From NCBI GenBank assembly GCA_027625095.1, contig JAQBXN010000032.1, forward strand, positions 1 to 64,000: a DNA stretch of 64,000 nt. The letters are read 5' to 3'. A program made the position numbers and the translations under genes. Position 1 is the stretch's first letter; each line of letters opens with the position of its first letter. The notes under the pieces were generated by a model. It had not been told where the DNA came from. It saw nothing but the letters and a program-made list of their open reading frames with translations, and did no database searches. The stretch is from Planctomycetota bacterium (lineage in GTDB: Bacteria > Planctomycetota > PUPC01 > JACPCR01). Positions 45,598-46,920 of this stretch are shown here, one piece after another.

Positions 45598-46920
45598 CTA
45601 CTGAATCGGCAGCATCAGATTCATTTCTTTCTGCTCACGTAGCACCGTGACCGGCATTTTCATTCCTGGCTTCATGGCGTCCAGCGAGTACATGAGAAAC
45701 TCCGTTTCCGTGGCCCGATCCTTTCTGCCATCGTAGGCGGTGAAAATGTCGTTCTTCCGGAAGCCGACCCGAAAGGCGGCGCCATGTTGGCCATGCTGAC
45801 CCAGATGCTCCACCTTGAGTGCGAGGCCAGCCGTGCCGATTCCGGCCTGTTCGCGTTCTTCATCGGTGAGATCCTTCAGAAGCACTCCACCGACCATTCG
45901 ACGCAAATCCCAGGTGCTCGTACGCCACGTGATATCACCCTTTGTCCGCCAGCCGGCTGCCAGGGAGAGGGTCAATTCCCGTTCTTTGTCAGCACTACGA
46001 ACAACTGCCTTTAACTGGTCGATATCCTCCGAGTGATGTAGCACCCATTGGATATCCGCAGTGGAAAGGATGGGCTGTCCATTGAGTGACAGGATCGCAT
46101 CCCCGGCATTCAAACCAGCCGCCGATGCGGGTGAATTTTCGCTGACGGTCTTGACCGTCGCCCGTTTGTCCGCATCCATCTCCATGCCGATAGTTGCCGG
46201 CATGGGCCACGGGAAAAGAACCTTCAGGGGAAATGATTCTTTTTGATTCCGGTAGACCATGCGTTCCGCATCGGAGATCTGATGGCAATGCATACAACTG
46301 CGGGCTACCTGGCCCAGGTAGTCGATATCTGCCTTGAAACCGCTCAGCGATGGATACTGTTCGGGCCTCTCATAGCGCGACTTATGCCCCTGTTTTCCTG
46401 CGAGGGTTTCACGATTCGCTGGATAGCCTCGGTGAATTTCGAGCGCCCCTTCCATAGCGTCTCCGAAACCTTGCATCGAGATATCACGGACAGCACTGCG
46501 ATCCGAACGTGATCCGTACCGGCCGTAAACAGTCTTATCCGCATTCATGAAGAACGCGGCGAATGTCAGGTCGTAATCGAACTGAAAGAGATTCAGGTCC
46601 ATAGCGTTCGCCTGCACCATGCGAACACAGACAAACTGATCCATCAAAGCCTTCAACCGCAATTCGCGACGGACAACCTGCCCGTCAAAATCCACGCAAG
46701 CGTGTCACGGTATTCAGCGGAATACGAGAAGTAGTGGCTTCTTTGTCCTGCTCGCAATATCGAGAGCCTTGGGCAGATCGTTGTAGATCCAGCTCTCATC
46801 GTCCTGCAAAGCTTGCCGGTCATCCAGGACCATCTGGTCGCGGGTCTTTTTCTGTTCAGCAATCGAAAGGCTCGTGGCCAGGACGAGAAATCCTGCCAAA
46901 TAAGACGTGTTACACTTCAT
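45598..46920 (-). CDS. candidate selenoprotein: thioredoxin-like (UxxU) + CxxCH motif + PDZ-like domain; read through two in-frame TGA codons
   Basis: ORFs 46714..47070 and 45598..46695 share one frame, separated only by TGA-ATA-CCG-TGA-CAC-GCT-TGC. Combined product: MKCNTSYLAGF...KKPLLLVFR-U69-IP-U72-HACVDFDGQVVRR...SCMHCHQ...NSPASAAGLNAGDAILSLNGQPI. Confidence 0.75.
46668..46686 (-). promoter_or_regulatory. candidate bacterial SECIS hairpin
   Basis: Minus strand GACGGGC-AGGTT-GTCCGTC: 7-bp stem with one G-U, 5-nt loop with G at loop positions 2-3. The loop starts 25 nt after the second TGA and 34 nt after the first. Confidence 0.6.

Follow-up and report, generated by a model that had tools for sequence, protein, structure and literature searches.

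Two in-frame UGA codons nine bases apart, and two downstream hairpins, in a probable Trx7/PDZ selenoprotein gene of Planctomycetota

How two UGA codons lying only nine bases apart might both be decoded in a bacterial messenger RNA is the question raised by a gene found in a 64,000-nucleotide stretch of a Planctomycetota genome (the window; positions 1 to 64,000 of contig JAQBXN010000032.1, assembly GCA_027625095.1). The gene, which very probably encodes a Trx7/PDZ selenoprotein, occupies 45598..46920 on the minus strand and runs for 440 codons, from an ATG at 46920-46918 to a TAG at 45600-45598; its sole in-frame stops are two TGAs, at residue 69 (UGA1, 46714..46716, minus strand) and residue 72 (UGA2, 46705..46707, minus strand), in the context KKPLLLVFR-U-IP-U-HAC, where U stands for selenocysteine (Sec). 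Open reading frame calling with translation table 11 breaks this frame into a fragment up to the first TGA and a 365-aa frame from 46695. A preliminary description of the locus had claimed a single long frame with the two TGAs as its only breaks, which translation bears out, and had proposed Sec at both positions of a thioredoxin-like motif. Judged from its sequence, the protein is very probably a double-Sec (UxxU) product, and two RNA hairpins, a proximal H1 and a distal H2, offer a possible account of how it could be made.

The read-through protein matches the NCBIfam family NF041199, "Trx7/PDZ domain-containing (seleno)protein", with 422.8 bits against a curated cut-off of 300 (E-value 1.2e-126), and the alignment places residues 44-438 on positions 2-389 of the 390-position profile. 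A survey of 401 genomes sampled within the phylum, with matches to NF041199 retained at 1e-60 or better, found the family in 127 of them; among the matches listed the internal stops are exclusively TGA, in keeping with the earlier remark that neither stop of this gene is TAA or TAG. The motif was then scored, with TGA read through, in a set of 141 loci that includes two Poribacteria records: each of the two positions carries either TGA or a Cys codon without exception, and the states are UxxU in 70, CxxU in 34, CxxC in 37 and UxxC in none. Homologues with Cys at both positions 69 and 72, on which the preliminary description had made its proposal depend, do exist. The same description had called double Sec uncommon; the UxxU centre that it deduced is also the one favoured here, but in the sample of this family UxxU is the most frequent state, and 28 family-level groups of the phylum sample contain it. 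At least 16-17 switches between UxxU and CxxU are seen on a tree from which the motif region was left out. The second motif position is Sec in every Sec-bearing member of the sample, and this regularity, together with the absence of UxxC, may be a sign that the RNA constrains the order in which the Cys residues can give way to Sec.

Several genomes (L089, L140, L143, L151 and others) hold two to four copies of the family; some copies are in tandem, and some of these genomes mix UxxU, CxxU and CxxC forms. Sampling more genomes of one class returned the same loci again. Scans of contigs and metagenomes with the single protein yielded few close relatives, although an informative contrast between CxxU and UxxU is among them.

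In the database, the nearest proteins are for the most part Cys forms of full length, which would be expected if gene callers truncate the Sec forms. The database entry of a relative with 79% identity covers only the part downstream of the TGAs, consistent with TGAs in that gene too. A frame interrupted by two in-frame stops could also belong to a decaying gene or to one misread in sequencing; however, both TGAs occupy identical codons in 70 loci, the protein and the SECIS (selenocysteine insertion sequence) remain conserved, and the 79%-identical relative is predicted only from beyond the TGAs. Since TGA stands at both positions in many independent genes, sequencing error is not plausible, and an origin by decay or error, contradicted by TGAs common to other genomes, keeps hardly any probability. 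The initial contention that random decay would not give such a pattern is strengthened by the survey, where 34 loci with TGA at the second position only join the 70 with both.

The gene comes from an 8.95-Mb draft genome (completeness 95%, contamination 5.8%) in which the Sec machinery sought by the preliminary description is present in all its parts. The tRNA-Sec (76.8 bits, anticodon UCA by ARAGORN) adjoins SelB (367 bits) on one 4.7-kb contig, and the same genome holds SelA (483 bits) and SelD (366 bits, C37:2833-3759), the latter carrying an in-frame TGA of its own (VRCAG-U-ASKL). The SelD TGA is followed by a CAGGTT-containing stretch, a candidate SECIS; a second SelD-like sequence, perhaps a SelD fusion, lies at C141:31155-32075 in a 740-aa open frame without TGA. 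In the wider phylum tRNA-Sec is found in 191 of 301 genomes. Where sampled genomes have a Sec form of the family, 61 show a tRNA-Sec match and 10 show none; for those with only Cys forms the corresponding numbers are 7 and 10.

A different amino acid could be placed at the UGAs by a suppressor tRNA, and Cys would be the natural candidate, being the residue that non-Sec homologues have there. Against this, the only anticodon of tRNA-Cys in this genome is GCA, the single UCA tRNA is tRNA-Sec itself, with no other UGA-reading tRNA detected by ARAGORN, and the SECIS-like hairpin goes with the TGAs and is missing from the Cys forms; suppression of this kind is very improbable. A general reassignment of the code was also considered and rejected: long frames of this genome end in TGA more often than in any other stop (2122 of 4334), and therefore UGA is not generally reassigned.

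The distal hairpin H2 (46667..46687, minus strand) has the form UGACGGGCA-GGU-UGUCCGUCG, a 9-bp stem closed by a GGU loop, with a minimum free energy (MFE) of -12.1 kcal/mol (z -2.35, p 0.01); the distance to its loop is 26 nt from UGA2 and 35 nt from UGA1. The model of the bacterial SECIS (bSECIS) in PMC13188914 has a loop of 3-9 nt with an early G, a stem of 4-16 bp, a spacing of 16-37 nt and an MFE of at most -7.5 kcal/mol; the loop, the stem, the energy and both spacings of H2 are within these limits. In the Sec members of the family H2 begins about 18 nt past UGA2, G[GU] occupies loop positions 1-2 in 103 of 104, and the spacing between loop and UGA2 is 24-28 nt, nearly always 25-26. The loop type, GGU/AGUU, is common to UxxU and CxxU genes; the stem sequences vary between members, with compensation. 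When codons were shuffled synonymously the mean MFE z was -2.24 for UxxU and -2.13 for CxxU, as against 0.02 for CxxC genes, from which H2 is absent. No significant Rfam family was found over the H1 and H2 hairpins. That the gene encodes a double-Sec member of the Trx7/PDZ family decoded through H2 can be proposed with high confidence.

H2 is shared by the one-Sec and the two-Sec forms; the proximal hairpin H1 sets them apart. In this gene it is CACG-CUUG-CGUG, directly 3' of UGA2 (46693..46704, minus strand; MFE -3.5 kcal/mol, z -1.76). Measured throughout the family as the fold of the 18 nt immediately 3' of UGA2, H1 has a mean MFE of -5.42 kcal/mol in UxxU, -1.89 in CxxU and -1.27 in CxxC genes, and reaches -3 kcal/mol or lower in 87%, 21% and 11% of them, respectively. 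Synonymous shuffles, which keep the protein, give z values of -1.98 for UxxU and 0.07 for both CxxU and CxxC; neighbouring windows carry no comparable signal, except for the distal hairpin. When the 3' arms were re-dealt among UxxU genes, the mean rose from -5.38 to -2.31 kcal/mol (standard deviation 0.24) and none of 300 shuffles was as low; the same operation among CxxU genes had no effect (144 of 300 as low). Registers and sequences vary by lineage, as in AAGGACU-GCA-AGUCCUU, GCUGGC-UGC-GCCAGC and GCCU-GCAA-AGGC.

The hairpin might have no decoding role and be a by-product of amino-acid or codon preference near UxxU, and it is true that UxxU members have somewhat different residues past the motif from CxxU members and that the H1 register differs between lineages. 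However, a z of about -2 in UxxU and about 0 in CxxU and CxxC genes is obtained with the protein preserved, the hairpin is destroyed by the re-dealing of its arms, and separate lineages arrive at it through different sequences and registers; an origin as a by-product is thus improbable.

H1 is strongly associated with UxxU throughout the family, and the phylogenetic support for this link is moderate. Medians per family-level group differ between UxxU and CxxU with p about 2e-6. In 12 phylogenetically independent pairs, H1 goes with UxxU in 8.6, against it in 0.4 and is tied in 3.0 (median p 0.008); under a better substitution model, with 10 pairs, the values are 6.7, 0.3 and 3.0 (median p 0.03), and H2 in the same test has no link to the UxxU or CxxU state. 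Among metagenome relatives outside the 141 loci, two CxxU genes lack H1 and three UxxU genes have a hairpin at the H1 site, one of them weak (-2.9 kcal/mol). H1 is likely to be a functional element of the UxxU genes.

As for how the hairpins could act together, SelB with Sec-tRNA-Sec would dock on H2, which would serve UGA1 and then UGA2. UGA1 is 9 nt further from the SelB loop than UGA2, near the upper bSECIS limit, and the distance from UGA2 to the loop is the same as in CxxU genes. H1 would remain folded while UGA1 occupies the A site and, being about 12-17 nt long, would place UGA1 roughly 18-23 nt from the SelB-bound loop; the folded hairpin would thus shorten the path, slow the ribosome, or both. 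With UGA2 in the A site, H1 would be inside the mRNA entry channel of the ribosome and melted, which would leave the 25-26 nt spacing of the CxxU genes. Slowing of the ribosome at UGA1 would by itself yield the same association, and shortening of the path, somewhat short of an even chance, is put forward tentatively.

H1 could instead be a second SECIS dedicated to UGA1, each UGA then having a SelB-binding hairpin of its own. The position of H1 speaks for it: 9-12 nt separate UGA1 from the start of H1 and about 13-16 nt separate it from the loop, near the 16-nt minimum for bSECIS in PMC13188914, and many H1 loops start with G. That G, however, mostly belongs to a conserved Cys codon, TGC; G[GU] is found at loop positions 1-2 in 8 of 61 H1 hairpins, against 103 of 104 for H2, and most genes have an H1 that falls short of the -7.5 kcal/mol given for bSECIS in the same source. 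A dedicated second SECIS is unlikely, although slightly less so than a by-product of codon preference. The chances are evenly balanced that H1 and H2 form a two-hairpin recoding element for UGAs nine bases apart, a shared SECIS with a switchable H1; the same even balance holds for the further idea that switches between UxxU and CxxU accompany the gain or loss of H1.

Several points weigh against the overall explanation, a double-Sec protein decoded through H2 with H1 as an aid. In this gene H1 has only 4 bp and is not significant alone (p 0.22), and the median p of the paired test becomes 0.07 when MFE is the criterion and the better tree is used. About 13% of UxxU genes have an H1 weaker than -3 kcal/mol, so that the hairpin may be helpful but dispensable. 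In addition, the Sec genes do not share a contig with the Trx7/PDZ gene, and the draft bin has the contamination given above, which makes a binning error possible; no tRNA-Sec matched in 10 sampled genomes with Sec forms, perhaps owing to their incompleteness.

The rest of the protein has the features ascribed to it in the preliminary description, a CMHCH motif and a PDZ domain. The Thioredoxin_7 domain that contains the two Sec codons spans residues 44-127 (46540..46791, minus strand; Pfam PF13899, 47.7 bits, 1.7e-12) and the PDZ domain residues 246-319 (45964..46185, minus strand; PF13180, 60.1 bits, 2.7e-16), both above the cut-off of 27. One amendment to the earlier picture is a second, C-terminal PDZ-like region at residues 346-438 (45607..45885, minus strand), supported by a second PF13180 stretch and by the strands and helices predicted there by AlphaFold with high predicted local distance difference test (pLDDT) values. 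The model as a whole, built with 32 sequences, has a pLDDT of 89.5 and a predicted template modelling score of 0.86. Its best structural matches are the PDZ-bearing DegQ and DegP; a Pfam scan of the protein found no trypsin-like protease domain of the DegP/HtrA type, and sequence matches to DegP/DegQ are confined to the PDZ region. The N-terminal part modelled alone resembles DsbH-like and AGR2/3-type thioredoxin folds with modest scores.

CMHCH, at residues 209-213 (46282..46296, minus strand), is a possible heme c or metal site. CxHCH is present in 140 of the 141 family members and CVECH in the remaining one; such constancy of the His between both Cys, broken in a single member, is unusual for a heme site, and the motif may have another role. 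Residues encoded at 46855..46920 (minus strand; MKCNTSYLAGFLVLATSLSIA) were read by eye as a probable signal peptide, with a charged start, a hydrophobic core and small residues ahead of EQ; the protein is therefore probably exported. This layout points to an extracytoplasmic redox enzyme with client proteins or peroxides as its substrates: in the mature protein a diselenide/diselenol pair would carry out thiol or peroxide redox reactions, and the PDZ domains would recruit client proteins. The domain layout, which the preliminary description regarded as an unusual fusion, is real; the family, however, already has a description and a name as a (seleno)protein family. A comparison of 136 loci showed no conserved gene neighbourhood and thus gives no functional clue, and a simple scan found no sigma-70-like promoter near the gene.

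An ab initio selenoprotein scan of the genome gave mostly noise and few candidates with domain support. Two of these are probably further selenoproteins: a DsbD-like protein with UxxC in a thioredoxin domain (FTGFT-U-INC, C10 near 3238, plus strand) and a small thioredoxin-like protein with UxxC (FTAKW-U-GAC, C110 near 5316, plus strand).

The family with its CxxU form, and UxxU in other families, are already known; the RNA arrangement of H1 and H2 looks like the new part. In the literature covered, with subscription papers and NCBI family notes largely outside its scope, UxxU in the Trx7/PDZ family is undescribed; the two-hairpin arrangement is likewise undescribed there, subscription papers again lying largely outside, and the literature searched offers no explanation for bacterial decoding of two UGAs so close. 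The known occurrence of double-Sec active sites is widened, as a published family has a common two-Sec form in one phylum; moreover, one protein that exists as UxxU, CxxU and CxxC, with matching RNA differences, constitutes a natural experiment and makes the decoding question testable with reporters.

Compared with NF041199 as published, the protein has the same domain order, a near full-length profile match and Sec at the C-terminal motif position. It differs in having Sec at both positions, since the Trx7/PDZ (or PDZ) domain-containing selenoprotein is tabulated as CxxU in two reviews (PMC13188914, PMC9312934), and the 2026 review of this pair gives it one Sec; in the passages covered H1 and H2 are not described. 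Other prokaryotic UxxU proteins are a Prx-like thiol:disulfide oxidoreductase, Prx-like 2 (GOS), the metal-binding NF041115 and an FmdB-family protein; they likewise have two Sec in a CxxC-type motif, but belong to different protein families. No match to NF041115 over the cut-off was found in 301 genomes of the phylum, and the matches listed for FmdB TIGR02605 are all stop-free. UxxC is listed for thioredoxin and many other selenoproteins, whereas in the Trx7/PDZ family the second position is always Sec if there is any. H2 fits the bSECIS model of PMC13188914 in its early loop G, stem, spacing and energy. Unlike the usual bSECIS, a single H2 appears to serve two UGAs, and UxxU genes add a proximal hairpin. 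SelL of aquatic organisms has UxxU in a thioredoxin-like fold, with a reported diselenide; it is mostly eukaryotic, has a SECIS in the 3' untranslated region (3'-UTR) and is not known to contain a PDZ domain or CxHCH. Finally, the selenocysteine redefinition element, a stem-loop that lies within the coding region a short way 3' of a Sec UGA and works with a 3'-UTR SECIS, resembles H1 in its position; that element, however, is eukaryotic, and the hairpin considered here belongs to bacterial genes.
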